From the NCBI RefSeq assembly GCF_001936595.1, contig NZ_MLBG01000041.1:1-34215 (forward strand): a DNA stretch of 34,215 nucleotides, given 5' to 3'. The position numbers and the translations under genes are program-made. The notes below the pieces were generated by a model, which saw only the letters and a list, made by a program, of their open reading frames with translations, searched no databases and was not told where the DNA came from. Positions 8,083-34,195 of the stretch are shown here, one piece after another (position 1 is the first letter of the stretch; each line of letters begins with the position of its first letter). The stretch comes from Desulfovibrio sp. DV. Its GTDB lineage: Bacteria; Desulfobacterota; Desulfovibrionia; Desulfovibrionales; Desulfovibrionaceae.

Positions 8083-10506
8083 TTATGCGGCAGAACGCTT
8101 TTTGGTTTGTTCTACAACCCATGCCCTAGGCCAGTTGGTGCCGTATTCTTTTTGGAGTTCTTTTATTCTTGAGATATTTTCCTTGTCGCTGATACCTACA
8201 AAGGCGAGTTCTGTTCTTTGTAAAGCTAATTGTACAAGCCTTCTTCCGTATGGTGTAACAACGTAGTAATCTCGCTTTGGCGTAGCCGAAGCGATGATTT
8301 CAATTTGCTTGTTGTTCAGACCCATCTGTTGATACAATTCAGACTGTACGTCCTGGCGCGCCGTGATGTTCGGCAAAAAGACCTTTGTCTGGCAGGATTC
8401 AACCAACACATCCAGTATCCCGGAGTTTTTAGCGTCCGAGAGACTTTGCGTGGCCATCACCACGGCACAGTTGGCCTTGCGCAAGACCTTGAGCCATTCG
8501 CGTATTTTGGCGCGGAAGGCGGGATGCCCGAGCATGAGCCAAGCCTCGTCCAGGATCAGCAGGACAGGCTGGCCGGTGAGGGCTTTCTCGATCCGGTGGA
8601 AGAGGTAGAGCAGCACAGGGATCAGGTTCTTGTCGCCCAGATTCATGAGATCCTCGATCTCGAAGACCATGAAAGGCGAAAGGCCAAGCTGATCCGTCTC
8701 GGCATCGAGCAGGTAGCCCATGGCTCCGGCCCGGGTGTAGTGTTGGAGCCCCTCCTTCAGGCGTTGATCCTGGATCAGGTTCACGAAATCGGTGAGGCTT
8801 CGCATATCGACCGGGCTGCTGCGTAGCAGTCTCATGGCCTTGTGGATTTCGTTACGGTCCCGAGGAGTGACCGGGGCTCCCTGCAGTTCCAGGAGGGTGC
8901 CCACCCATTCTTCGGCCCAGGCCAGTTCGGCGGGATCGTCTATGTGCTGCAACGGGGCAAACGACAGCGCGTCACTGCCGCCGACATCATAGTGGGTGCC
9001 GCCCACGGCTTCGCAGAGGGCAAACATCGACATGCCCTTGTCAAAGGCGAAAACCTGGGCCTGGTCATACCGCCTGAACTGCGCCGCGATCAGCGCCAGC
9101 AAAGTGGACTTACCGGCACCGATGGGGCCGAAAATCAAGGTGTGCCCGACATCTCTTACGTGCAGGTTAAACCAAAACGGTGTGGAACCGTCGGTCGTGC
9201 ACACCATAAGGGCCGGAGAGTCGGCCGGATAAAACGGACATGGGCAATTCCGCTCGCCCGCCCAGATACTGGCAAGGGGAAGCAGATCGGCCAGATTGAG
9301 GGTGTTGATGAGGGGTCTACGGAGATTGGCGAACCAGTTACCGGGGTGCGTGCCGAGCCAGGCGTCCAGGGCATTGATGGTTTCGATCCGGCAGCCGAAG
9401 CCAAGGGTCAAGATGGCCCGGCGGAGTTCCCTCGCCCAATCCTGCAGGATGACCTGGTCCTCATGGAGTAGCACAATGCAGGAGCTCAAAAAGCCGGCCC
9501 CGACATAACCTCCCTGGACTTCACTGAGTGCGTCGCCAGCGTCATTGACCATGTTGGCCGCGTCCATGTTTGGACGCGCATTGGGCAAGTTGAAGTATTT
9601 GTCGATGAACCGAAAAACGTTTTGTTCCCATCCCTTCCTGTACGATGTGATCGCTTTTTGAGCGTCCAGCTGATCCAGGCAGATGAACCGGGAAGAAAAC
9701 CGATACTGGAGCTGCAAGCCGTCCAGGACCGACAGCATGGCCGGCCAGCTTTCCTGGGGCAGGCCGTCAATGCTGATGACCGCGATGTGCTGGTCGCCGA
9801 TCCGGGGCGTCAAACCGCCGATCAGCTCCTCGCTGCCGAGAAGCGCGTCCAGATACATGGGCGTGGACGGGACCTGGACAGGCTGCTCGATGCCCGTCAG
9901 GCATAGCTGGAGATGAGACAAAAGCTCGCTGTAGCGCGCCGAGGAGCCGCTTTCGTCCACTTCGGTATAGTCCGCGAGCCGTTTCAGGTGCAGGACCGCC
10001 GAAAGGGCATCCTCGAACTCCAGCAGGGTATTTTGGAAGAGTTCCAGGCTGCGTTCCAAAGCGGTGCTGGAGCCGCCGCCAGTCTTGGCGGCGGCAGTCA
10101 TCTTTTCAGCGCCGAAGTTTGGCTTGAAACTCAGGATGACGACGGTCTTTGTTCGATAGCAGACGCCGCCGCTGAAAAAGTCACGGCGCTCGTCATCGAT
10201 GAGCTGCGAGACGGGGTCCGGAAAGTGGCTGTCCTCGGGCCGGGAGTAGGCATGATGGATGCTGCGCACCGCATCCACATGCAGCATCCAGCCGGAGCCA
10301 AGGAGTTTCACCGCGTTGTTGAATTGGGCGGAAACAAAGGCCAGCTCGTCGGCGGTACTGGAGGCTGTATCCTGCCCATGCGCGACAAATCCCGCCAGAA
10401 ACGTCCCGTCTTTGCAAAGCACGATGCCTGGGCCAATGAGGGCCGCATAGGGCAGCAGGTCCGAGACGCCACGGGCGCGTGAGCGAAACTTGCGCAGATT
10501 GAGCAT
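8083..10506 (-). CDS. trbE: TrbE, type IV secretion ATPase (VirB4 family)
   Basis: An 807-residue cytoplasmic/inner-membrane ATPase. Start MLNLRKFRSRARGV at 10506 overlaps the trbD stop (TGATG), so the longer upstream frame is discarded. Walker A GPIGAGKST has its Lys at about residue 466, and Walker B is LLILDEAWLMLGHPAFR near residue 650, followed by VVMATQSLSDA. These are standard VirB4/TrbE/CagE motifs. The protein powers pilus assembly and substrate transfer together with TrbB. The length is usual for the family and no frameshift is seen. The last 200 bases of the gene are noticeably richer in A/T than the rest. Confidence 0.96.
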   Translation of the reverse strand: MLNLRKFRSRARGVSDLLPYAALIGPGIVLCKDGTFLAGFVAHGQDTASSTADELAFVSAQFNNAVKLLGSGWMLHVDAVRSIHHAYSRPEDSHFPDPVSQLIDDERRDFFSGGVCYRTKTVVILSFKPNFGAEKMTAAAKTGGGSSTALERSLELFQNTLLEFEDALSAVLHLKRLADYTEVDESGSSARYSELLSHLQLCLTGIEQPVQVPSTPMYLDALLGSEELIGGLTPRIGDQHIAVISIDGLPQESWPAMLSVLDGLQLQYRFSSRFICLDQLDAQKAITSYRKGWEQNVFRFIDKYFNLPNARPNMDAANMVNDAGDALSEVQGGYVGAGFLSSCIVLLHEDQVILQDWARELRRAILTLGFGCRIETINALDAWLGTHPGNWFANLRRPLINTLNLADLLPLASIWAGERNCPCPFYPADSPALMVCTTDGSTPFWFNLHVRDVGHTLIFGPIGAGKSTLLALIAAQFRRYDQAQVFAFDKGMSMFALCEAVGGTHYDVGGSDALSFAPLQHIDDPAELAWAEEWVGTLLELQGAPVTPRDRNEIHKAMRLLRSSPVDMRSLTDFVNLIQDQRLKEGLQHYTRAGAMGYLLDAETDQLGLSPFMVFEIEDLMNLGDKNLIPVLLYLFHRIEKALTGQPVLLILDEAWLMLGHPAFRAKIREWLKVLRKANCAVVMATQSLSDAKNSGILDVLVESCQTKVFLPNITARQDVQSELYQQMGLNNKQIEIIASATPKRDYYVVTPYGRRLVQLALQRTELAFVGISDKENISRIKELQKEYGTNWPRAWVVEQTKKRSAA

Positions 10507-24144: not shown

Positions 24145-25803
24145 ATGCGTCTGGCGCACGCAGCATTTTTTGTCCTTGTCCTGCTCCTCCTTGGCGGTTG
24201 CGACAGCCCGCCCCGGGACGCGGACAAGGCCCCCCCGGCTTCGGCTGCGGCCCCGGCCAAGGCTCCTGGCGAGCCGGTTTCGGGCGGACGCATCGTCATG
24301 GCCACCATCGGCGAACCCTCCAACCTGATCCCGCCCCTGGCCTCGGATTCCGCCTCCCATGAGGTGGCCGACCTGCTCTATGTCTCGCCGCTGCGCTACG
24401 ACAAGGACATCAAACTCGAATGTTTCGCGGCCGAGCGCTATGAAGTGCTCGAAGACGGCAAGCTGCTCAAATTCTGGCTGCGCCCGAATATCCGCTGGAC
24501 CGACGGCGCCGAGCTCACAGCCGAGGACGTGGAATTCACCTACAAGCTCATGATCGACCCCAAAACGCCCACGGCCTATGCCGAGGACTACAAGGCGGTC
24601 ACGAGCTTCACCGTGACCGGCAAATATTCTTTCGAGGTGCGCTACGCCGAGCCCTTTGCCCGGGCGCTGGTCACCTGGGCCGGGTCGATTCTGCCCAAGC
24701 ACGTCCTGGCCGGCCAGGATCTGATGACGACCAAGTACGCCCGGGAGCCCGTCGGGGCCGGCCCCTACGTCCTGGCCGGCTGGGAACCCGGCCGCAGCCT
24801 GACGCTCAATGCCAATCCCGACTATTTCGAGGGCCGGGCCTACATCGATCAGGTCCTCTATCGCATCATCCCGGACACCTCGACCATGTTTCTGGAACTC
24901 AAGGCCGGCAATCTGGACATGATGGGGCTCACCCCGCAGCAGTACCTCTACCAGACCACCGGCCCGACCTGGGAAGCCGACTGGCAGAAGTTCAAATACC
25001 TGTCCTTTGGCTACACCTACCTGGGCTACAACCTCAAAAGCCCGTTTTTCACCGACGTCCGGGTGCGCCGGGCCCTGGCCCATGCCGTCAACAAGGAAGA
25101 CATCATAAAAGGGGCGCTCCTGGGCCTTGGCATGCCCACCATCGGCCCCTACAAGCCCGGCACCTGGGTCTACAACACCGCCATCACGGACTATTCCTTC
25201 GATCCGGACAAGGCCAAGGCCCTGCTGGCCGAAGCCGGCTGGCAGGACCGAAACGGGGACGGCATCATCGAGGATGCATCCGGCCGGCCCTTTTCCTTTA
25301 CGCTCCTCACCAACCAGGGCAACGAGGCGCGCATCAAGGCCGCCACCATCATCCAGAGCGAACTGGCCGCCATCGGCATCAAGGTCGAGATCCGCACCGT
25401 GGAGTGGGCTTCGTTTCTCAAGGAATTCGTGGACAAAGGCAATTTCGACGCCGTCATCCTGGCCTGGAGCGTGGCCCAGGACCCGGACAACTACGACGTC
25501 TGGCACTCGAGCCGGGCCGTGCCCGGGGGGCTTAATTTCGTGGGCTATAAAAACCCCGAAGCCGACGCCCTGCTGGAGCGCGGCCGGCGCACCGTGGATC
25601 AGGCCGAGCGCAAGGTGGTCTATGACGCCTTCCAGGAGCGCCTGCACCAGGACCAGCCCTACCTCTTCCTTTTTGCCCCCTACAGCCTGCCCATCCTGAC
25701 CGCGCGCATCCAGAATGTGGCCGTGGCCCCGGCCGGCATCAGCTACAACTTCACCAAATGGTGGATTCCCCGCGACAAGCAGACGTTTCGTCTGGAACAG
25801 TAA
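24145..25803 (+). CDS. ABC transporter substrate-binding lipoprotein, peptide/nickel family 5
   Basis: A 552-residue lipoprotein of the OppA/DppA type (SBP_bac_5). Start ATG at 24145 has AAGGAG upstream; the longer frame is rejected. The lipobox LLGGC puts the lipid at Cys19, followed by an Ala/Pro linker. Family features: RWTDGAELTAEDVEFTYKLM, PVGAGPYVLAGWEPGRSLTL, VRRALAHAVNKEDI, and the terminal lobe with YLFLFAPYSLPILTARIQNV. It would capture peptides or similar solutes in the periplasm for an ABC importer, but no permease or ATPase gene is adjacent. The partner is therefore elsewhere or the protein acts as an orphan. A 12-bp hairpin follows. Confidence 0.93.
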   Translation: MRLAHAAFFVLVLLLLGGCDSPPRDADKAPPASAAAPAKAPGEPVSGGRIVMATIGEPSNLIPPLASDSASHEVADLLYVSPLRYDKDIKLECFAAERYEVLEDGKLLKFWLRPNIRWTDGAELTAEDVEFTYKLMIDPKTPTAYAEDYKAVTSFTVTGKYSFEVRYAEPFARALVTWAGSILPKHVLAGQDLMTTKYAREPVGAGPYVLAGWEPGRSLTLNANPDYFEGRAYIDQVLYRIIPDTSTMFLELKAGNLDMMGLTPQQYLYQTTGPTWEADWQKFKYLSFGYTYLGYNLKSPFFTDVRVRRALAHAVNKEDIIKGALLGLGMPTIGPYKPGTWVYNTAITDYSFDPDKAKALLAEAGWQDRNGDGIIEDASGRPFSFTLLTNQGNEARIKAATIIQSELAAIGIKVEIRTVEWASFLKEFVDKGNFDAVILAWSVAQDPDNYDVWHSSRAVPGGLNFVGYKNPEADALLERGRRTVDQAERKVVYDAFQERLHQDQPYLFLFAPYSLPILTARIQNVAVAPAGISYNFTKWWIPRDKQTFRLEQ

Positions 25804-25808
25804 CACCC

Positions 25809-25838
25809 GCGGGCGCGTCCATCCCCGGACGCGCCCGC
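25809..25838 (+). terminator. Hairpin between the lipoprotein and rel genes
   Basis: Perfect 12-bp stem, arms GCGGGCGCGTCC and GGACGCGCCCGC around ATCCCC, six bases beyond the lipoprotein stop. No T run follows, so it may be a weak terminator or an mRNA 3'-end stabiliser. Confidence 0.5.
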
Positions 25839-25877
25839 CATTCACGGCCGCCACCCGGGCACGAGGCCGGGACAATC

Positions 25878-28097
25878 ATGATCCGCATCAACGAAATTCT
25901 CGATAAAACCGCCCTGTACTTAAATGAGCAGGACCAAGCGCTTATCACCAAGGCCTACGTGTTTTCGGCCGCTGCCCATGCCGGGCAGGTGCGCCTTTCC
26001 GGCGAACCCTACCTGTCCCATCCCCTGGAAGCCGCCGGCATCCTGGCCGACATGCGCCTCGACGCCGCCTCCATCGCCTCGGGCCTGCTCCACGACACCG
26101 TCGAGGACACCAAGGCCACGGTGGACGAGATCGAGGAACTCTTTGGCGAGGAAGTGGCCGACATCGTTGACGGCGTGACCAAGATCAGCCTCATCCCCTT
26201 TGAGACCAAGGAAGAGGCGCAAGCCGAAAACATCCGCAAGATGATCCTGGCCATGGCCGAGGACATCCGGGTGGTGCTGGTCAAGCTGGCCGACCGGCTG
26301 CACAACATGCGCACGCTGGAGTTCCAAAAGCCCCACAAGCGCTCGATCATCGCCCAGGAAACCATGGACATCTACGCCCCGCTGGCCAACCGGCTGGGGC
26401 TGCATCGCATCAAGACCGAGCTTGAGGACTGGAGTTTCCGCTACCTAAAGCCCGACATCTACAACCAGTTGGTGGAAGGGGTCGAGACCCACCACACCCT
26501 GGACGAAACCTATATCGACCGGGTCATCGCCTACATAAACGGCCTGCTCGAACCCAACAACATCAAGGCCCGGGTCTTTGGCCGGCGCAAGCATCTCTGG
26601 AGCGTCTACAACAAGATGCGCGTCCAGGAGCTGACCATCGATCAGGTCCACGATCTGGTGGCCTTCCGGGTGGTGGTGGAGACGATTCGCGAATGCTACC
26701 ATGTGCTCGGGCTGGTCCACTCCCTGTGGAAGCCGGTTCCGGGGCGGTTTAAAGACTACATCTCCATGCCCAAGGCCAACATGTACCAGAGCCTGCACAC
26801 CACGGTGGTGGGCCCTGGCGGCGAGCGCATCGAAATCCAGATCCGCACCGAGGAGATGCACCGGCTGGCCGAAGAAGGCGTGGCCGCCCACTGGAAGTAC
26901 AAGGAACGGGAGAAGGGCAAGTTCAACCCCCGCGATGTGGAGCGCTTCCAGTGGCTGCGCCAGATCATGGACTGGCAGCGGGAGCTGACCGACTCGCGCG
27001 AGTTCGTCACCAACCTGCGCTTTGATCTCTTCCAGGACGAGGTCTACGTCTTCACCCCCAAGGGCGACGTCAAGGAGCTGCCCGAAGGGGCCACCGCCGT
27101 GGATCTGGCCTTTCTCATCCACACCGCTATCGGCGAGCACTGCGCCGGAGCCAAGGTCAACGGCAAGCTGGTGCCGCTCGATACGCCGCTTAAAAACGGC
27201 GACACCGTCGAGATCATCACCGACAAGAACCGCCGGCCCAACCGCGACTGGCTCAAATTCGTCAAGACGGCCAAGGCGCGGATGCGCGTCAAGCATTTCA
27301 TCCGCACCGAGGAACGGGTCCACTCCATTGCCCTTGGCCGCGAGATGCTGGAAAAGCAGGGGAGAAAGGACGGGGTCAACGTCTTAAAGGCCATCAAGGA
27401 CGGCTCCATGCTGACCGTGGCCCGCGACCTGTCCATGGGCAGCGTCGAGGACGTGCTCTCGGCCGTCGGCTATTCGCGCATTACCCCCAAAAAGATCATT
27501 GTCCGGCTCATGCCCAAGCGCGAGGGCGAAGAGCCCGAAGCCGCCGCCGCCAGGGTTGCCGAGCAGCATCCCCCGACCCCGGAATCCGGGCATGTGCCCA
27601 AGGGCAAGCCCGGAGAGGGCGTGCGCATCCAGGGCGTGGACAACGTGCTGGTGCGGCTGGCCCAGTGCTGCAACCCGGTGCCCGGCGACGCCATCGTGGG
27701 CTATATCTCCCGGGGACGCGGCATGGTGGTCCACACCCACGACTGTCCCAACGTGCGCAACCTCGAATCCGAGCGGCTCATCCAGGTCAGCTGGGAAGGC
27801 GAGAAGGAACAGCCGTATCCGGCCGGCCTGTCGATTCTGGCCAAGAACGAGAAGGGCGTGCTCAGCAAGATTTCCAACCAGCTGGCCGAGGAAGGCGTCA
27901 ATATCGATTCCGGGGCCATCCACTCCAATGTGGACGGCACCACCCAGCTCACCTTCCGCATCGAGGTCCGCGACTCCGGCCACCTCTACCGCACCATCGA
28001 ACGCCTGCGCCGCCTGGACGCCGTCATCGACGTCAAGCGCCACGCCGTTTCCGACGAACTTGGGACCAACACCAGCGAACCCGGCATTATGGACTGA
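25878..28097 (+). CDS. rel: Bifunctional (p)ppGpp synthetase/hydrolase, Rel/SpoT
   Basis: A 739-residue stringent-response enzyme with all domains. The HD hydrolase has GQVRLSGEPYLSHPLEAA and the catalytic LLHDTVEDT, so (p)ppGpp degradation should be active. The synthetase domain has KMRVQELTIDQVHDLVAFRV and GRFKDYISMPKANMYQSLHT; the RFKD motif is of the bifunctional (GDP-preferring) type, not the RelA EXDD type. The TGS domain follows (VYVFTPKGDVKELPEGATAV), then the zinc-finger/RIS region (AQCCNPVPGDAIVGYISRGR, HTHDCPN), and the C-terminal ACT domain (LSKISNQLAEEGVNIDSGAI). The start at 25878 gives the conventional MIRINEILDK N-terminus. The split-Rad50 cluster begins nine bases after its stop, so the genes may share a transcript. 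Being bifunctional, it is probably the main alarmone enzyme of this organism. Confidence 0.96.
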   Translation: MIRINEILDKTALYLNEQDQALITKAYVFSAAAHAGQVRLSGEPYLSHPLEAAGILADMRLDAASIASGLLHDTVEDTKATVDEIEELFGEEVADIVDGVTKISLIPFETKEEAQAENIRKMILAMAEDIRVVLVKLADRLHNMRTLEFQKPHKRSIIAQETMDIYAPLANRLGLHRIKTELEDWSFRYLKPDIYNQLVEGVETHHTLDETYIDRVIAYINGLLEPNNIKARVFGRRKHLWSVYNKMRVQELTIDQVHDLVAFRVVVETIRECYHVLGLVHSLWKPVPGRFKDYISMPKANMYQSLHTTVVGPGGERIEIQIRTEEMHRLAEEGVAAHWKYKEREKGKFNPRDVERFQWLRQIMDWQRELTDSREFVTNLRFDLFQDEVYVFTPKGDVKELPEGATAVDLAFLIHTAIGEHCAGAKVNGKLVPLDTPLKNGDTVEIITDKNRRPNRDWLKFVKTAKARMRVKHFIRTEERVHSIALGREMLEKQGRKDGVNVLKAIKDGSMLTVARDLSMGSVEDVLSAVGYSRITPKKIIVRLMPKREGEEPEAAAARVAEQHPPTPESGHVPKGKPGEGVRIQGVDNVLVRLAQCCNPVPGDAIVGYISRGRGMVVHTHDCPNVRNLESERLIQVSWEGEKEQPYPAGLSILAKNEKGVLSKISNQLAEEGVNIDSGAIHSNVDGTTQLTFRIEVRDSGHLYRTIERLRRLDAVIDVKRHAVSDELGTNTSEPGIMD

Positions 28098-28106
28098 GTT
28101 GGCCCC

Positions 28107-29594
28107 ATGATCACCCGGCTCACCCTGACCGATTTCATGGCCCACGGGCACACTGAGTTTGCCTTTGCGCCGGGCCTCAATGTGCTGACCGGCCCCAACA
28201 ACACCGGTAAATCCGCCGTGGTCGAGGCCCTGCGCTGCCTGTCGGAAAATCCCGTGCCCCGCCACGTCATCCGCCACGGCGCTGCCGAGGCCCGGGTGGA
28301 GGCCGAGCTTGAGGACGGGGTGACGGTCACCTGGGTGCGCCGGCCGAAATACGCCCTCTATGAAGTGCGCCGGCCCGGGGTGGACGAGCCGGAAGTCTTT
28401 GCCAAGTTCGGCCGGGCCGTGCCCGAGGAGGTGCGCCGGCTGCTGCGCCTGGGGCCGGTGCTTCTCGGCGGCGACGGCGAGGTGAGCGTGGATGTCCATA
28501 TCGGCAACCAGCGCGAACCGGTGTTTCTCCTAAACGAACCCGGTACCGTGGTGGCCGGCTTTTTTGCCGCCTCCACCGAAGCGGCCCATCTGATCGCCAT
28601 GCAGGCCCGGCTGACCGAACGCAGCCGCAAGACCAAGACCGAGAAAAAACGCCTGGAAAAGGGGCTGGCCGCCATCGCCGCCAGCTTAGGGCGGCTTGCC
28701 CCCCTGCCGGAGTTGGAACTGCGCCTGGAAGCGGCGGCCGGGCTGGAGGCCGCTGTTGCCGGCCGGGAGGCCGATGCTTGCGGGCTGGAACGGCTGCTGG
28801 CCGGGCGCGGGCAGGTGGCCGGGCGCATCGCCGTCCTTTTGCGCACCGGGCGCACCCTTGACGGGCTGGCTCCGCCGCCGGTCCTGGCCCCGACCGGACA
28901 GCTTGTGGCCCTGACCGCCCGGCAGGCCGAACTGGTCTGGAGCCTTCGCCGGACAACCGGCCGGGAACGCGCCCTGGCCCCCCTGGCCCTGCCGCCGGTC
29001 CTGGCTGACACCGCAACCCTGGCCGCCCGGCTGGCCGCCCTGGTCCGGGTCGGGCAGGCGGTCGGCCGCTGTGCCGGCCGGTCCGTGGCCCTGGCCCGGC
29101 TCGACGAGCCGCCGCCAATGGCCGATGCCAGGGGACTGGGTGCGTTGCTTGCGCGTCTGGCCGAGAGGCAGGCCGCCCTGGCCGTTCGGGAACGCCGCCA
29201 TGCGGTCCTGGCCGCCCTGGACGAACCGCCGCAGACCGCGGACGTGGCCGTCCTTGGGGCGCTGGTGCGGGCGGTCACCCAGGGCCGGGCCGCCGTTGCC
29301 GCCCTGAGCCGTCGGCAGGCCGTGCAGGCCGCCCTGGCCCCGCCGCCGGACGTCGCCGATGTGCGCCCCCTGGCCGAACTGGTGCGGACCCTGGCCGAGG
29401 CCAGGGCTGCTGTGGCCGCAACAAGCGCTGCCCTGGCCGCCAGGGAACAGGCCGTGGCGGCCTTTGCCGAGGGCGTGGCCCGGCGTCTGGCCGCCCTTGG
29501 AGCCTGTCCCTTGTGCGGCGGCGAACTGTCGGCCGAAGCCTTTCTGGGCGGCGGCCACAGCCACCAGCCGCCGCCGCCCTCGGAGGAGTCATGA
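28107..29594 (+). CDS. N-terminal half of a Rad50/SbcC-like ATPase, with CPLC hook motif
   Basis: A 495-residue protein. The N-terminus MITRLTLTDFMAHGHTEFAF continues into Walker A GPNNTGKS (residues 29-36), the typical SMC/Rad50/RecF start. Residues 1-170 form the N-terminal ATPase lobe (Q-loop-like SVDVHIGNQREPVFLL). There is no Walker B or signature motif. Residues 170-250 are helical; residues 251-445 consist of five tandem 39-residue repeats; residues 466-472 are ACPLCGG, like the CxxC zinc hook at the tip of Rad50. The chain ends soon after, in an His/Pro-rich tail. It thus corresponds to the first half of a Rad50, stopping at the hook; the other half is encoded at 30863. It overlaps the phosphoesterase gene by four bases (ATGA). 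Function in DNA end processing or repair is inferred. Confidence 0.8.
   Translation: MITRLTLTDFMAHGHTEFAFAPGLNVLTGPNNTGKSAVVEALRCLSENPVPRHVIRHGAAEARVEAELEDGVTVTWVRRPKYALYEVRRPGVDEPEVFAKFGRAVPEEVRRLLRLGPVLLGGDGEVSVDVHIGNQREPVFLLNEPGTVVAGFFAASTEAAHLIAMQARLTERSRKTKTEKKRLEKGLAAIAASLGRLAPLPELELRLEAAAGLEAAVAGREADACGLERLLAGRGQVAGRIAVLLRTGRTLDGLAPPPVLAPTGQLVALTARQAELVWSLRRTTGRERALAPLALPPVLADTATLAARLAALVRVGQAVGRCAGRSVALARLDEPPPMADARGLGALLARLAERQAALAVRERRHAVLAALDEPPQTADVAVLGALVRAVTQGRAAVAALSRRQAVQAALAPPPDVADVRPLAELVRTLAEARAAVAATSAALAAREQAVAAFAEGVARRLAALGACPLCGGELSAEAFLGGGHSHQPPPPSEES
28857..29441 (+). repeat. Five in-frame 117-bp (39-residue) tandem repeats
   Basis: Units begin at 28857, 28974, 29091, 29208 and 29325, each exactly 117 bases. 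Each protein unit opens like LARLDEPPPMAD or LAALDEPPQTAD, with a paired proline at positions 7-8 and Ala (usually Ala-Asp) at 11-12, then about 27 helical Ala/Leu/Arg residues. Units are diverged in DNA and protein but keep length without any insertion or deletion. Confidence 0.85.
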
Positions 29595-30544
29595 CCCTGC
29601 CGGTGCGTCGGGCCAGCGGCCTGCTCCTTATCCCCGATCCCCATGTGGCGGCCACGCCGCCCATGCAGCGGCTCGACTCCTACATGGACGACATCCTGGC
29701 CAAGCTGGCCGCCTGCCTGGACCATGCCGCCGCCGCCGATCTCGTGCCGGTGGTGTTGGGCGACCTGTTCCACTGGCCGCGCGAGAATCCCAACGTGGTC
29801 ATGGTGGCGCTCATCGAACTTTTCCGGGACCATCATCCGTACGTGCTGGTTGGCAACCACGACAAATATCAGGCCCGGTTCACGGCCGACACCTCGCTGG
29901 CCGTGTTGCGCGCCGCCGGAGTGTGCGAGGTTCTGGACGAACCCGGTTTGTTTCTGCGCCTGGACACGCCGACCGGCCCGGCCCTTGTCGGCGCGTCCCC
30001 GGACGGCGCGTCCCTGCCGCTCTCGGTGGACACGGCACCCGGCGAGGAGAGCGTGTGGCTCACCCACCACAATGTCGGGTTCCCGGATTTCCTGGACAAG
30101 CACGTGAAGATCCGGGAAATTCCGGGTCTGACCTGGCTTATTAACGGCCATATCCACCGGCCCCAGCCGACGGTTGCGGCCGGCTGCACCCGCTGGGCCA
30201 ACCCCGGCAACGTGACCCGGCTCAAATTTAGCCGCAGCGCCATGACGCGCGTGCCGGCCGCTGCCGTCTGGCGGCCCGGAGCAGCGGACATCGAACACTG
30301 GACCGTGCCCTACCGCCCCTTTGCCGAGGTGTTCCCGGACCAGGAGTTCCCGCCCGAAGACAGCGCCCCGGCCGAGGTCCAGTCGCGCTTTCTCGAAGGG
30401 CTGGCCCGGCTGGCCTGGAAGCGCACCCGCGAGGGGGCGGGGCTGCATGAATTCCTGCGCGCCAACCTCAACCCCGAGCACCCGGAATCCGCCCTCATCT
30501 GGGAGCTGTACCGCGAGGTCACCGATCATGCCGATGCCGAGTAA
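29591..30544 (+). CDS. Mre11/SbcD-like metallophosphoesterase
   Basis: A 317-residue calcineurin-type phosphoesterase. Metal-binding motifs in order: LLIPDPHVA (Asp16, His18), VVLGDLFHW (Gly57-Asp58), VLVGNHDKY (Asn89-His90-Asp91), LTHHNVG (His159-160) and NGHIHRPQ (His187, His189). Spacing and the final GHIHxPQ...NPGN pattern fit the Mre11/SbcD nuclease branch. The C-terminal 90 residues (FLEGLARLAWKRTREGAGLH, ANLNPEHPE) are helical and could be the surface that binds the ATPase coiled coil. GGAGGA precedes the ATG at 29591, which overlaps the stop of the N-half ATPase. It lies between the two ATPase halves. Nuclease activity is expected from the motifs but not proven. Confidence 0.85.
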   Translation: MTLPVRRASGLLLIPDPHVAATPPMQRLDSYMDDILAKLAACLDHAAAADLVPVVLGDLFHWPRENPNVVMVALIELFRDHHPYVLVGNHDKYQARFTADTSLAVLRAAGVCEVLDEPGLFLRLDTPTGPALVGASPDGASLPLSVDTAPGEESVWLTHHNVGFPDFLDKHVKIREIPGLTWLINGHIHRPQPTVAAGCTRWANPGNVTRLKFSRSAMTRVPAAAVWRPGAADIEHWTVPYRPFAEVFPDQEFPPEDSAPAEVQSRFLEGLARLAWKRTREGAGLHEFLRANLNPEHPESALIWELYREVTDHADAE

Positions 30545-30845
30545 GGTTGTTGCCGCCGACGCCGACGCCAGCCTGGAACGCGAACTGGCCGGCCTCAAGA
30601 CCGCCTATGAGCGTTTACGGGACGACAAGGTGCGCACCGAACAGGATTTGCGCCACCAGCAGACCCAGCTGGCCGAACTGGAAGCCAAGGCCCGCGCCGA
30701 CTACGGCACGGCCGATCCCGAGGCCCTCGCCCGGCTTCTGGAAGAAAAGCGCCAGGAAAACGCCCGTCTGGTCGCCGAATACCGCGAGCACATCGCGGCG
30801 GTCAGGCGCGACCTCGACGCCGTGGAGCAGGATTTTGCCGGCTGA
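30528..30845 (+). CDS. Small coiled-coil protein of the split-Rad50 cluster
   Basis: A 105-residue protein, almost wholly helical and charged (LERELAGLKTAYERLRDDKV, EARLLEEKRQ-like heptads, VAEYREHIAAVRRDLDAVEQ). No Cys, membrane segment or catalytic motif is seen. It overlaps the phosphoesterase gene by 17 bases and ends 17 bases before the C-half ATPase start, so it is part of the operon. The C-half ATPase has only a short helical arm, so this protein may supply missing coiled coil to the complex; that is inference. Two in-frame ATGs (30528, 30534) could serve as start. Confidence 0.75.
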   Translation: MPMPSKVVAADADASLERELAGLKTAYERLRDDKVRTEQDLRHQQTQLAELEAKARADYGTADPEALARLLEEKRQENARLVAEYREHIAAVRRDLDAVEQDFAG

Positions 30846-30862
30846 TTTTTGGGGTGGTGCGT

Positions 30863-31597
30863 ATGCCGCTTGAAGCTTCGCCAGAGCTGGCTGCTCTGGC
30901 CGAGGAGCGCCAAACCCTGACGCGCCGCCTCGACCGGCTCTCCGGGCAGGCCTCGGCCAAGGCCGAGGCCTATATCGAGTCGCGCCGCCAGCTCCTGGCC
31001 GCCGAGGCCTTTCTCGACCTCGCCCCCCAGGCGGCCGCACGCCTGGAAGACCTCACCCGGGAGCTTTTCGGCGAGGTGCTCGACGAGATCGAAACCGACC
31101 TGACACACGCCGTGCGCGAAATCCTCGGCCAAAATCGCACGGTCGTCACCCGGCGCGAGATCAAAAACGGCAAGCTCGTCATCGAATTCGAGATGGAGCA
31201 GGACGGCAGGACCGAAGATATCTACGTCGGCCAGGGCGGGTCGGTCTGCAACATCCTGTCCGTCGGACTGCGCCTGGTCGCCCTTTCCCAGCTCGACCCC
31301 GACCGCCACAGGCCCTTTCTGGTGCTCGACGAGCAGGACTGCTGGCTGCGCCCGGACCTTGTGCCCGGTTTCGTGCGCCTCATTGCCGCCATCGCCGACC
31401 GGCTCGGCATCCAGGTGCTCTACATCAGCCACCATCCGGTCGATCTCTTTGCCCTGGAGGCCCGGCGCGTGTTCGGCCTGCGTCCGGGGCGGGAAAACGG
31501 ACCAACCCTGACCATCCTGGCCGATCGCACAGCCGCCGGCGCAGTCGATCTGTCGGCCCCGCAAGCCGAAGCCCAGACCACCCCGGGCGGCGAATAG
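30863..31597 (+). CDS. C-terminal half of a Rad50/SbcC-like ATPase
   Basis: A 244-residue protein lacking Walker A. Residues 8-70 are helical. A beta segment follows (VVTRREIKNGKLVIEFEMEQ), then a signature-like segment GQGGSVCNILSVGLRLVALS (residues 123-142, in place of LSGGQ), Walker B FLVLDEQDCWLRPD (Asp156, Glu157) and an H-loop-like YISHHP (His190-191). These are the motifs found in the C-terminal lobe of Rad50/SbcC/SMC ATPases and are missing from the protein encoded at 28107, so the two probably combine into one nucleotide-binding head. The divergent signature resembles that of some stand-alone RecF/SMC-like ATPases. ATG at 30863 was chosen over two GTG codons just upstream. A REP-like element follows the stop. 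Confidence 0.82.
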   Translation: MPLEASPELAALAEERQTLTRRLDRLSGQASAKAEAYIESRRQLLAAEAFLDLAPQAAARLEDLTRELFGEVLDEIETDLTHAVREILGQNRTVVTRREIKNGKLVIEFEMEQDGRTEDIYVGQGGSVCNILSVGLRLVALSQLDPDRHRPFLVLDEQDCWLRPDLVPGFVRLIAAIADRLGIQVLYISHHPVDLFALEARRVFGLRPGRENGPTLTILADRTAAGAVDLSAPQAEAQTTPGGE

Positions 31598-31688
31598 GCC
31601 GGGGATGCGTGAAGGGAGATACGGTGGGGGAGATGAGGTGAGACGAGGTGGAATGAAGGGAGATGAGGTGGGGCGAAGGAGTCGAAGA

Positions 31689-31740
31689 GTGCCTCCGGCG
31701 GCCGGGGGGATGATCCCCCCGGACCCCTGCAATGGGAAAA
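31689..31740 (+). repeat. REP-like 3'-end element, copy 1 (variant hairpin)
   Basis: GTGCCTCCGGCGGCC is followed by a 9-bp hairpin (CCGGGGGGA/TCCCCCCGG, loop TGA) and then ACCCCTGCAATGGGAAAA. It sits about 90 bases after the C-half ATPase stop, in the direction of transcription. Confidence 0.75.
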
Positions 31741-31851
31741 ATTAAAAACGGTGTGCATGCTCTCCGACCAGGGACCTCTTCCCGCCTTTCCGGGCTCCCT
31801 TCCGCCCGGTGACTTGGCAACGCGCCCGGTCAAATCCAACCTGCCCCGGGT

Positions 31852-31893
31852 GGGATTCCAAAGGGTGTCAGTCCCTTTGGCCGCCGGAGGCAC
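31852..31893 (-). repeat. REP-like 3'-end element, copy 2 (minus orientation)
   Basis: On the minus strand it reads GTGCCTCCGGCGGCC, then a hairpin CCAAAGGG/CCCTTTGG, then AATCCC. It lies 28 bases beyond the stop of the minus-strand Cys-rich peptide gene. Confidence 0.78.
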
Positions 31894-31921
31894 TCTTTTC
31901 TCCTTTCATTCTCCCCTCGCA

Positions 31922-33170: not shown

Positions 33171-33210
33171 GTGCCTCCGGCGGCCAAAGGGGTGACCCCT
33201 TTGGAAACCC
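33171..33210 (+). repeat. REP-like 3'-end element, copy 3
   Basis: GTGCCTCCGGCGGCC is followed by a hairpin (CCAAAGGGG/CCCCTTTGG, loop TGA) and AAACCC. It lies 45 bases after the cupin stop, in the direction of transcription, and is preceded by a purine-rich stretch. Confidence 0.8.
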
Positions 33211-33289
33211 ACCGGGAAGAAGTGTGTAAAGGGGTTCTTGGCGTTGTGTGGCAATCCGGTCGGCGGCGGACCGGGGAAAGGAAACGATC

Positions 33290-34135
33290 ATGGCCGAAAC
33301 GCCTGTCCTCACCGTCGTCCGCCATCCGGCTGTGCCGGGGCTTGAGGCCGTGGCCGGGCTTGGCGTGGCCGCCGACATTGTGGCCCATGCCCATGCGGCC
33401 ATGGTGGTGGGGCTGTGTCTGGCCGGCGGCCGGCGCATCGTGTCCGGAGGCGGCCAGTGGCGCATCGAGGCCGGGCAGGGGTTTGTGGTGCCGGCCGGGG
33501 TACGCCATGCCTGTTCGCCGCTCGACGTCGCCGGACACGCCTATCTGGCCCTGGCCATCCGGCCCGAAGCGTTGCTTGAGGCCGGGGTGGCGGTCGGTGC
33601 GCCGGAAGTCTGGGTGCGCCCGTGGCAGGACAGGGGTGCGGCCGCGTTGGTGCGCCGGCTGGCCGGCCTCCTGGCCGGGGAAGGGGACGACGCGGGCCGG
33701 ATACTGGAGACGCTGGCCGCTTTGGCCGCCGGCCTAGGCCTCAAACCGGGCCTTGCCCCGCCGCCCCATCCGGCCACGGTGCGGGCCAGAGCGGCCATGG
33801 ATGCCGATCCGGCCGCGGCCCACAGCCTGTCTGCCCTGGCCCGGCTGGCCGGGGTCGGGGAGACGTACCTGGAGCGGGTCTTTGCGCGCGATGTGGGGAT
33901 GCCGGTCGGCCAGTACCTGCTTGGCCGCCGGGTCCGGCTGGCCGCCTCGCGCATTGCCGGCGGCGAAGCGCTGGCCGAGGCTGCCCTGGCCGCCGGATTT
34001 TACGACCAAAGCCACCTGACCCGCCACTTCCGGCAACGCATGGGCGTGCCCCCGGGGGGGTATAGCGAGGGGATACGGGAAGAGCCTGCGGCTGGGGATA
34101 AAGGCAGAAGATGCCTCCGGCGGCCAAAGGGGTGA
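33290..34135 (+). CDS. AraC-family transcriptional regulator
   Basis: A 281-residue regulator. Residues 1-110 are a cupin-like effector domain (VAADIVAHAHAAMVVGLCLA, GQGFVVPAGVRHACSPLD). The C-terminal about 100 residues form two AraC helix-turn-helix motifs: AHSLSALARLAGVGETYLER, VFARDVGMPVGQYLLGRRVR, and ALAAGFYDQSHLTRHFRQRM followed by GVPPGGY. It probably senses a small aromatic or sugar-like ligand and may control the cupin gene or an operon beyond the window. The final residues (CLRRPKG) and the TGA are encoded by a REP-like element, so the natural C-terminus has been extended into repeat sequence. Confidence 0.92.
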   Translation: MAETPVLTVVRHPAVPGLEAVAGLGVAADIVAHAHAAMVVGLCLAGGRRIVSGGGQWRIEAGQGFVVPAGVRHACSPLDVAGHAYLALAIRPEALLEAGVAVGAPEVWVRPWQDRGAAALVRRLAGLLAGEGDDAGRILETLAALAAGLGLKPGLAPPPHPATVRARAAMDADPAAAHSLSALARLAGVGETYLERVFARDVGMPVGQYLLGRRVRLAASRIAGGEALAEAALAAGFYDQSHLTRHFRQRMGVPPGGYSEGIREEPAAGDKGRRCLRRPKG

Positions 34136-34150
34136 CCCCTTTGGAATCCC
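34111..34150 (+). repeat. REP-like 3'-end element, copy 4, containing the AraC gene stop
   Basis: ATGCCTCCGGCGGCC is followed by the hairpin CCAAAGGGG/CCCCTTTGG with loop TGA, then AATCCC. The loop TGA (34133-34135) is the stop codon of the regulator gene. Confidence 0.8.
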
Positions 34151-34195
34151 TCCTGGAAGGCAAGCAGCCAGGGAGGTGACGCCTGCCCCTTTACA

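Follow-up and report, generated by a model that had tools for sequence, protein, structure and literature searches.

A Mre11-Rad50-like gene set in Desulfovibrio sp. DV with the Rad50 chain apparently opened at the hook

Four adjoining genes and their conserved motifs

The window, that is, the whole stretch of 34,215 nucleotides from Desulfovibrio sp. DV (contig NZ_MLBG01000041.1), carries on its plus strand a set of four genes, whose sequences support a Rad50/Mre11-like set in which the hook is the point where the Rad50 chain is open. N (28,107–29,594; 495 aa) encodes the N-half ATPase with a Rad50-type N-lobe, a repeat arm and a terminal CPLC hook; M (29,591–30,544; 317 aa), a Mre11/SbcD-like metallophosphoesterase; CC (30,528–30,845; 105 aa), a small helical protein; and C (30,854–31,597; 247 aa, GTG start), the C-half ATPase with a helix and a Rad50/SMC-type C-lobe. 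By the ORF calls, the start of M overlaps the end of N by 4 nt, that of CC overlaps the end of M by 17 nt, and C starts 8 nt past CC. An earlier note on this DNA had described four overlapping or abutting genes at 28,107–31,597, which the ORF calls, motifs, Pfam matches and conservation all bear out; its view of a Rad50 chain opened at the hook with the nuclease gene in the gap also held, the M and CC ORFs lying between N and C. A single gene split by sequencing error was ruled out, because the M gene separates the halves and the layout recurs in 58 loci. Eleven comparisons of the window genes with loci L009, L010 and L013 gave dN/dS values of 0.11–0.57, and pairwise distances of the four proteins correlated at 0.84–0.93 over 53 loci, for which common species history alone could suffice. 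Within 27,900–31,800, no sigma-70-like promoter site was found, and the one terminator-like site was no excess over shuffles. No fifth partner gene was seen among the neighbours of 81 loci, the commonest neighbour cluster occurring in 13 of them; DUF3795 was the commonest Pfam family next door (7 of 67 immediate same-strand neighbours, among the best 25 of 87 families), the rule that called the neighbour ORFs being crude, so that probably not all of them are genes.

The N-half bears a Walker A motif, GPNNTGKS (28,191–28,214; residues 29–36), of which G29, N31, N32, G34, K35 and S36 were kept in all 54 N sequences, and matched Pfam AAA_23 (34.5 bits against a 27-bit cut-off). Profile searches of the ATPases had been suggested in the earlier note; against PDB profiles, N matched the N-lobes of Rad50 and SMC6 as well as two solved structures of the Rad50 zinc hook, 1l8d and 6zff. 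P. furiosus Rad50 was the first Foldseek row for the N model, with a low TM over the whole chain. The top NCBIfam match of N was ASRP (NF045487; 42 bits over residues 15–106, cut-off 300), followed by RecN, and RecF also matched, all over the P-loop region. The arm (28,581–29,498) consists of helices spanning residues 159–464, approximately 305 residues, in an AF2 model with mean pLDDT 79 and a pTM of 0.35, at which the global shape is unreliable; beyond residue 252 the model has four helices of 27–30 residues and one of 45. Pro-containing breaks about every 39 residues separate these helices, so that the arm is not one continuous coiled coil, and among 53 loci its length ranged from 219 to 499 residues, growing in 39-residue steps. 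An up-down fold of these repeats seems improbable: arm lengths can differ by one unit, and each added unit would then move the hook to the opposite end. The CPLC hook (29,505–29,516; residues 467–470) lies 29 residues from the C-terminus, and a terminal CxxC was present in 56 of 58 N-halves (locus L086 left out). By profile, N thus has the CxxC zinc hook of Mre11-Rad50, with zinc binding predicted. At least one His followed the CxxC in 52 of 56 tails, at least two in 39 of 56, and [HC]xH in 32 of 56, suggestive of a CCHH zinc site within the N chain.

The metal-motif residues of M are D16–H18, D58, GNHD (29,852–29,863; residues 88–91, G88, N89, H90 and D91 each in 68/68 sequences), H159/H160 and GHIH (30,146–30,157; residues 186–189, with G186, H187 and H189 in 68/68 and I188 in 66/68), followed after the nuclease core by a conserved C-terminal region of about 95 residues, which may or may not be a counterpart of the domain by which Mre11 binds Rad50. 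M matched Pfam Metallophos (28.6 bits, cut-off 21.5), and 14 of its 15 PDB profile matches were named Mre11, SbcD or (putative) exonuclease. Its top NCBIfam match was PdeM (TIGR04123; 22.3 bits over residues 33–106, cut-off 150), while the SbcD model TIGR00619 gave 13 bits against a cut-off of 77.65. By its motifs and its Pfam and PDB profile matches, M provides the Mre11-type nuclease partner with metal motifs that is a feature of Mre11-Rad50. Since these motifs were essentially invariant in 68 chromosomal sequences and present in 27/27 phage copies, the nuclease of the window is under selection.

The AF2 model of the C-half (pLDDT 86) has one long helix, residues 10–91, and its best Foldseek matches were SMC/Rad50 C-lobes (for example 1f2u_B, TMt 0.75). 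C carries a signature-like GQGGS (31,229–31,243; residues 126–130; G126, G128 and G129 in 79/79), which by its position would be equivalent to the Rad50 signature and differs in sequence from LSGG; a Walker B/D-loop LDEQDCW (31,325–31,345; residues 158–164), found in 80/80 C-halves with L086 left out; and an H-loop SHH (31,427–31,435; S192, H193 and H194 in 79/79). A Walker A pattern was found in 0/80 C-halves. Taken over 54 N, 68 M and 79 C sequences, the Walker A, Walker B and metal-site residues were invariant or nearly so. Regarding the unequal arms claimed in the earlier note, the inequality itself stood, and the N-arm has about 305 residues rather than the 275 given there, against the C helix of residues 10–91. 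CC has a YGTxD turn in an alignment of 40 and may be a helical hairpin; no curated Pfam or NCBIfam family matched it over cut-off. The suggestion that CC completes the shorter arm found no support: the simple form of CC as a returning arm was ruled out because its core span was constant, 73 residues in 53/53 loci, while the N-arm varied by whole 39-residue steps. Several CC copies per arm are possible.

Arrangements, distribution and relation to SbcCD

The system was present in Desulfovibrionales, other deltaproteobacteria, Planctomycetes, two Bacillota MAGs, proteobacterial megaplasmids and phages. Among 81 loci from the C-half search, 58 had N-M-CC-C complete and in the same order, and most others were cut by contig ends. 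The four genes are often together and not always: the C gene lay distant from the N-M-CC set in four genomes (one of which has N truncated at a contig end), the N gene lay distant from M-CC-C in one, and three MAGs had C with no N found. Halves occurring apart had been named beforehand as evidence against a single machine; their occurrence in these five genomes and the three C-only MAGs loosens the linkage, and joint function is not refuted, because both halves were kept in all five split-locus genomes.

In phages, N, C and M were all present in 27/27 loci, in the order N, then C, then M, and in 12 of them a profile placed CC between N and C. A tblastn search of phage records returned no C-half; the phage N-half and the genes next to it led to the phage C-half. 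The count leaves out the N-like proteins that phages PG1 and Lilo encode, which are without the hook, and scans of viral_contigs gave no relatives, whether the query was A1 or one of two megaplasmid fusions. The single annotated phage copy is followed downstream by genes for a Holliday-junction resolvase and for a helicase labelled UvsW. Megaplasmids (21 records found, 10 regions examined) had a C~N fusion, C first, in all 10 regions, with CC upstream by profile in nine and M recognised downstream in nine. The nuclease motifs of M were lost in five gamma-proteobacterial megaplasmids that retained the ATPase lobes and hook, and a sixth had no recognised M. RecQ, UvrD-type or other helicases, RecJ or RdgC were found near the megaplasmid copies in six of seven annotated regions, the exception being Bosea.

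To relate the system to SbcCD, we compared genomes with and without it. In the Desulfovibrionales sample, 0/15 system genomes had an SbcD-family match (E ≤ 1e-10) compared with 46/66 others (Fisher P=4e-7), and in the phylum sample 0/11 compared with 88/186 (same threshold; P=0.0013), the sampled genomes not being independent by descent. The SbcC Walker-B family occurred in 0/15 system genomes and 22/66 others of the order sample (P=0.008), its model missing 7/14 control genomes. At the curated SbcD cut-off, which misses 6/14 control genomes, the order-sample difference was not significant (0/15 and 12/66, P=0.11). Neither the system nor an SbcD match was found in 20/66 genomes of the order and 98/186 of the phylum. 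In the window's own genome, TIGR00618 and TIGR00619 reached at best 19.7 and 20.8 bits, below cut-off, and the curated NCBIfam SbcC/SbcD cut-offs were not reached by the set itself. The earlier question whether canonical sbcCD is absent alongside the system is answered positively for the order and phylum samples at E ≤ 1e-10. It is answered negatively for four genomes in a set of 23 with the system that were traced from the loci: these had an SbcD-family match, two of them over cut-off. As the system and SbcD-family matches at E ≤ 1e-10 never co-occur in the sampled order and phylum, the system appears, from gene content, to be a stand-in for SbcCD there.

A candidate hook-opened complex and competing readings

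Together these data make it likely that the set is a hook-opened Mre11-Rad50 complex doing the job of SbcCD. N, with the Walker A lobe, and C, with the signature and Walker B lobe, would form one ABC ATPase head, for which the C~N fusion is the best evidence. Two such heads would dimerise around two ATPs and gate the Mre11-like nuclease M docked at the head, which may cut or resect DNA ends, hairpins or blocked ends. Beside the head, the short helix of C would pair with the first stretch of the N-arm, the remaining arm forming an extended modular rod to which one 39-residue unit is added per step, and a zinc hook at the rod end would join two complexes. Because the hook lies near a real chain terminus, the N-arm would be without a returning strand there; CC is probably placed at one fixed site (head/neck or C-half helix) and not along the arm. 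In a Rad50 head the two chain ends are near each other, so that opening at the hook would allow for split genes as well as for the circularly permuted C~N fusion seen in megaplasmids.

A very improbable reading is that N and C do not make one head, each being paired with another ATPase in a loose operon, as the split loci of five genomes and the three MAGs with C and no N might suggest; against this, the halves are fused in every megaplasmid region examined, their motifs are complementary, and both are present in 27/27 phage loci. A structural, tethering or loading machine of cohesin/RecN-like type, whose arm bridges DNA while the nuclease is accessory or dispensable, accords with the loss of nuclease motifs in 5 of the 10 megaplasmid versions, which keep the ATPase lobes and hook, with the modular arm, with a C-lobe whose matches include SMC heads in addition to Rad50, and with RecN as second-best NCBIfam match of N. 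We consider it unlikely, given the nearly invariant metal motifs of chromosomal M and their presence in all phage copies. The anti-invader role raised in the earlier note, an anti-phage or anti-plasmid system in which a split Rad50-like sensor acts with a nuclease effector, comparable to Lamassu and other ABC-ATPase systems, could explain why N has local PADLOC matches to GajA, LmuB and PtuA ATPase models, why the distribution is patchy (11/197 genomes in the phylum sample) and why copies occur on plasmids and in phages. Nevertheless, all 25 listed of the 71 PADLOC matches of N are local over the P-loop region, M had no PADLOC match at E ≤ 1, and the C matches were weak (best E 0.0014); the 25 Pfam families most frequent in the 67 immediate neighbours included no defence family, and recombination genes follow the annotated phage copy. 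In addition, LmuB is described in PMC10586767 as a single chain with Walker B generally changed from E to Q, whereas E stands in 80/80 C-halves here. The neighbour families, the PADLOC matches and the lack of SbcD-family overlap in the sampled order and phylum all speak against a defence role, which we regard as improbable.

Rad50/SMC proteins are generally treated in the field as one chain folded back at a hook or hinge. Beyond the hook-opened complex preferred above, we tentatively raise a broader reading, which as a whole is possible and rather doubtful: a separate Rad50-type branch in which the chain is opened at the hook and the returning arm is gone, leaving a single N-arm built of whole 39-residue modules. 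In such a branch the terminal hook would be a free end, often with trailing His and possibly a one-chain CCHH site; a ring or tether could open at its tip or by exchange of half-heads, unlike one-chain Rad50; and in some megaplasmids the opened chain would have been re-joined in circularly permuted form, alongside a dead nuclease.

Comparison with known systems and use of the natural variants

A search of a literature library found no prior description of a hook-split Rad50 set. With SbcCD/Mre11-Rad50 the set shares a Walker A N-lobe, a C-lobe with signature-like motif, Walker B, D-loop and H-loop, a CxxC hook at the arm end and an Mre11-type phosphoesterase encoded alongside. It differs in having two chains, N ending within about 30 residues of the hook, where SbcCD has both lobes on one chain with the hook in mid-coil, as well as in the extra 105-aa CC protein, the arm of 39-residue Pro-broken units, and SbcC/SbcD model scores far below cut-off. 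PdeM (TIGR04123), a ligase-associated endonuclease, belongs to the same phosphoesterase superfamily as M, which scores far below its 150-bit cut-off, and we know of no Rad50-type ATPase that is part of the PdeM system.

Non-canonical Mre11-Rad50 also occurs in viruses and plasmids: according to PMC3175470, fusions in Mimivirus, plasmids and some bacteria place Mre11 before Rad50, while here M stands alone and Rad50 itself is divided, or permuted to begin with the C-lobe. A Rad50-like ATPase, often with a CPxCG hook, is likewise found in Lamassu (LmuB) and ABC-3C, and the part of PMC10586767 that covers them mentions no Mre11-type partner; Lamassu there combines a single-chain LmuB with the LmuA effector, as opposed to a two-chain ATPase and an M without PADLOC match, and its LmuB models cover only the P-loop region of N among the 25 matches listed of 71. 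The archaea-specific SMC-related ClsN/Sph (NF045487) shares the zinc hook and is the best NCBIfam match of N; it is a single chain, N reaches 42 of the 300 bits of its cut-off, and the text of PMC9389158, which treats it, nowhere contains 'Mre11'. The set points to a possible role for genes that now bear the label AAA ATPase, metallophosphoesterase or hypothetical protein, and its variants offer natural separation-of-parts constructs, namely half-heads, arms of 223, 262, 301 and 340 residues and dead-nuclease versions, which serve questions on the roles of hook, arm length and nuclease.

The four genes and their folds

The layout described in the earlier note held up, with forward-strand reading frames that overlap or stand within 8 nt of each other: N, a Rad50-type N-lobe ATPase half with Walker A, an arm and a terminal CPLC hook (28107–29594); M, an Mre11-like metallophosphoesterase (29591–30544); CC, a small helical protein of 105 residues (30528–30845); and C, a Rad50/SMC-type C-lobe ATPase half (30854–31597). 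A Pfam search assigned AAA_23 to N and Metallophos to M, both over cut-off, and no family over cut-off to CC or C. The top PHROG match of N was an 'exonuclease' family (102 bits, residues 2–217), while all NCBIfam matches of N and M were far under cut-off (N: ASRP best, 42 of 300 bits, then RecN, RecF and Rad50 at 30–33; M: PdeM best, 22 of 150 bits, with SbcD at 13 of 77.65).

In comparisons of PDB sequences with profiles from 51–79 relatives, the N profile matched the N-lobes of SMC6 and Rad50, its positions 360–431 and 375–431 matching the Rad50 zinc-hook structure 6zff and 1l8d, respectively. Among 15 matches of M, 14 were named Mre11, SbcD or (putative) exonuclease and the remaining one hypothetical protein, and C matched an SMC3-construct C-lobe first (E 6e-5) and an ABC-transporter ATPase second (E 0.003). 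The AlphaFold2 model of C (pLDDT 86) comprised a single long helix (10–91) and a lobe; Foldseek ranked SMC and Rad50 C-lobes as the best matches of this lobe (e.g. 1f2u_B, TMt 0.75). The N model (pTM 0.35) showed a lobe followed by separate helices, with P. furiosus Rad50 as the first Foldseek row at a whole-chain TM of only ~0.2. LDEQDCW was present in 80/80 C-halves and Walker A in 0/80, and dN/dS of 0.11–0.57 in 11 comparisons indicates purifying selection. A loose Walker-B pattern matched 5/55 N-halves, hits read as chance or a conserved FLL.E stretch rather than a second Walker B. His followed the CxxC in the tails of 52/56 N-halves, and [HC]xH in 32/56; the N-halves of loci L056 and L082 have no CxxC at all and end in a different, mutually similar tail.

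Upstream, the gene at 25758–28097, judged by eye to be a RelA/SpoT-like (p)ppGpp gene, ends 9 nt before the N start, a gap short enough that co-transcription with the four genes is possible; it was not found as a recurring neighbour of the set. Downstream lies a family of ~48-nt intergenic repeats, TGCCTCCGGCGGCC..., whose stem is imperfect (31690–31737, 33172–33219 and 34112–34159; relative to the reference, the other copies show 63% and 94% identity), with an inverted copy at 31872–31897.

Arm length and the small helical protein

Arm length was measured from the conserved MQ after the N-lobe to the CxxC column in 53 loci. In 41 of these the arm was exactly 223, 262, 301 or 340, that is, in steps of 39, and the periodicity near 39.5 beat all 2000 jittered sets. 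The CC core span was 73 in 53/53 loci, with varying ends, and the C-half helix did not track arm length (Spearman 0.16, p = 0.25; 53 loci). CC thus does not stand in for a missing returning arm, and the earlier proposal that it may complete the shorter one is not supported, since the CC core stays constant and the C-half helix does not follow the varying arms. Because arm lengths vary one unit at a time, they would fit a linear modular rod better than up-down folding, and our guess is that two N-arms pair in parallel along the outer arm.

Gene order in chromosomes, megaplasmids and phages

A C-half scan with one genome per species yielded 104 relatives, of which the best 80, together with the window, gave 81 loci; being picked by C-half likeness, they are not a neutral sample. 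By record title, these best 80 of 104 included Desulfovibrionales (Solidesulfovibrio being closest to the window's genome), Syntrophobacterales, Desulfobacterales, other deltaproteobacteria, Planctomycetes and two Bacillota/Clostridiales MAGs. In 58/81 loci the four genes share a strand in the order N-M-CC-C, N itself being cut by the contig end in a few. Another 14 start at a contig end within the set (M-CC-C in 11, CC-C in one, C alone in L015 and L048), five of them with an N fragment still visible; N is also cut by the contig end in L029, and in L086 every part is present, M and CC being fragmented. Seven loci were exceptions despite room on the contig. For L065, N lies elsewhere in the same genome, and for L021, L041, L042 and L071 an N-M-CC set lies elsewhere, apart from C (N being cut by a contig end in the L021 genome, and the set ending at one after CC in the L042 genome). 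The MAGs of L043, L045 and L048, for which no completeness is given, yielded no N. The earlier note had asked whether the four genes always occur together: they stand side by side in the 58 loci, but are split within five genomes. About 36 kb from its main match, one genome has a further, incomplete C-half match interrupted by two stop codons (G067:C3:305733–305975).

Other ARRANGEMENTS of the parts occur in megaplasmids and in phages. The C-half was found by tblastn in 21 plasmid records, and in all ten megaplasmid regions examined C and N form one chain, C first and N second. These fusions carry Walker A (10/10), a CxxC starting 11–24 residues before the C-terminus, and an LDE-type Walker B (9/10; not matched in Methylorubrum); a CC-like gene lies immediately upstream by profile in 9/10, weakly in L089. 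M follows the fusion with GNHD and GHxH intact in Bosea, Variovorax, Rhizobium and Methylorubrum, and without them in Alteromonas, Vibrio and three Pseudomonas, and was not recognised in the Aeromonas region; beside the fusions of L089, L090, L139, L142 and L145, M is apparently a dead nuclease, its motifs gone. The strongest case for a single head made of N and C comes from this permuted fusion.

In Bacillus phage vB_BboS-125, N is gp32, ending CPLC, the CC-like protein gp34 and C gp35. This phage is one of 27 IMG/VR phage loci, all with the order N, C, M, three M motifs and a terminal CxxC; Walker A was found in 0/27 of their C-halves, a simple LDE-type Walker B in 22 loci, and CC by profile in 12. 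The M-like phosphoesterase frame of vB_BboS-125 (L091, 9112–10227) lies mostly in a gene-less stretch of the record (9238–10244). Trees were built from 22 chromosomal, 10 megaplasmid and 8 phage rows. In both lobe trees the phage copies formed a single group, and chromosomal copies grouped with good support in the C-lobe tree and less in the N-lobe tree (90/72); megaplasmid copies formed a single group in the N-lobe tree (88/89), but not in the C-lobe tree.

Relation to SbcCD and probable function

Among 81 genomes of the window's order, 15 carried the C-half and 46 an SbcD-family match (E <= 1e-10), with an overlap of 0 (Fisher p = 4e-7); the corresponding comparisons were 0/15 vs 12/66 with the curated SbcD cut-off (p = 0.11), 0/15 vs 22/66 for the SbcC Walker-B family (p = 0.008) and, in 197 genomes of the phylum, 0/11 vs 88/186 for the SbcD family (p = 0.0013), p-values that are overstated because the two samples share genomes (including system-bearing G000 and G033), many genomes have neither (20/66 and 98/186, respectively) and relatives are non-independent. 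The window's own genome gave an SbcD-like match of 20.8 bits and zero SbcC over cut-off. A missing match does not prove absence, since among 14 well-known control genomes 12 gave an SbcD hit (8 over cut-off) and 7 an SbcC hit. Among 23 system-bearing genomes reached via the loci (14 planctomycete by title), four had an SbcD-family match, two of them over cut-off, and the seven with deltaproteobacterial titles had none. The earlier note had asked whether canonical sbcCD is absent from system-bearing genomes; in the order and phylum samples no SbcD-family match accompanied the system, but one did in these four genomes. Replacement of SbcCD therefore has fair support within the window's phylum; outside it, the case would be looser.

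Recombination-type neighbours were found in one annotated phage and 6/7 annotated megaplasmid regions. This company, with the parts themselves, their conservation, purifying selection and the lack of SbcD-family overlap in the samples, makes DNA-end processing like that of SbcCD the most likely predicted function. A defence role is possible, and the anti-invader function suggested earlier found zero positive evidence here. Among the matches listed in searches of open-access literature, no description of a split or permuted Rad50 was found; one may have been published elsewhere. We consider that the set probably encodes an Mre11-Rad50 complex opened at the hook and doing SbcCD's job, in which the N and C halves would assemble into the head, cutting would be gated by ATP, and tethering would proceed via the hook.
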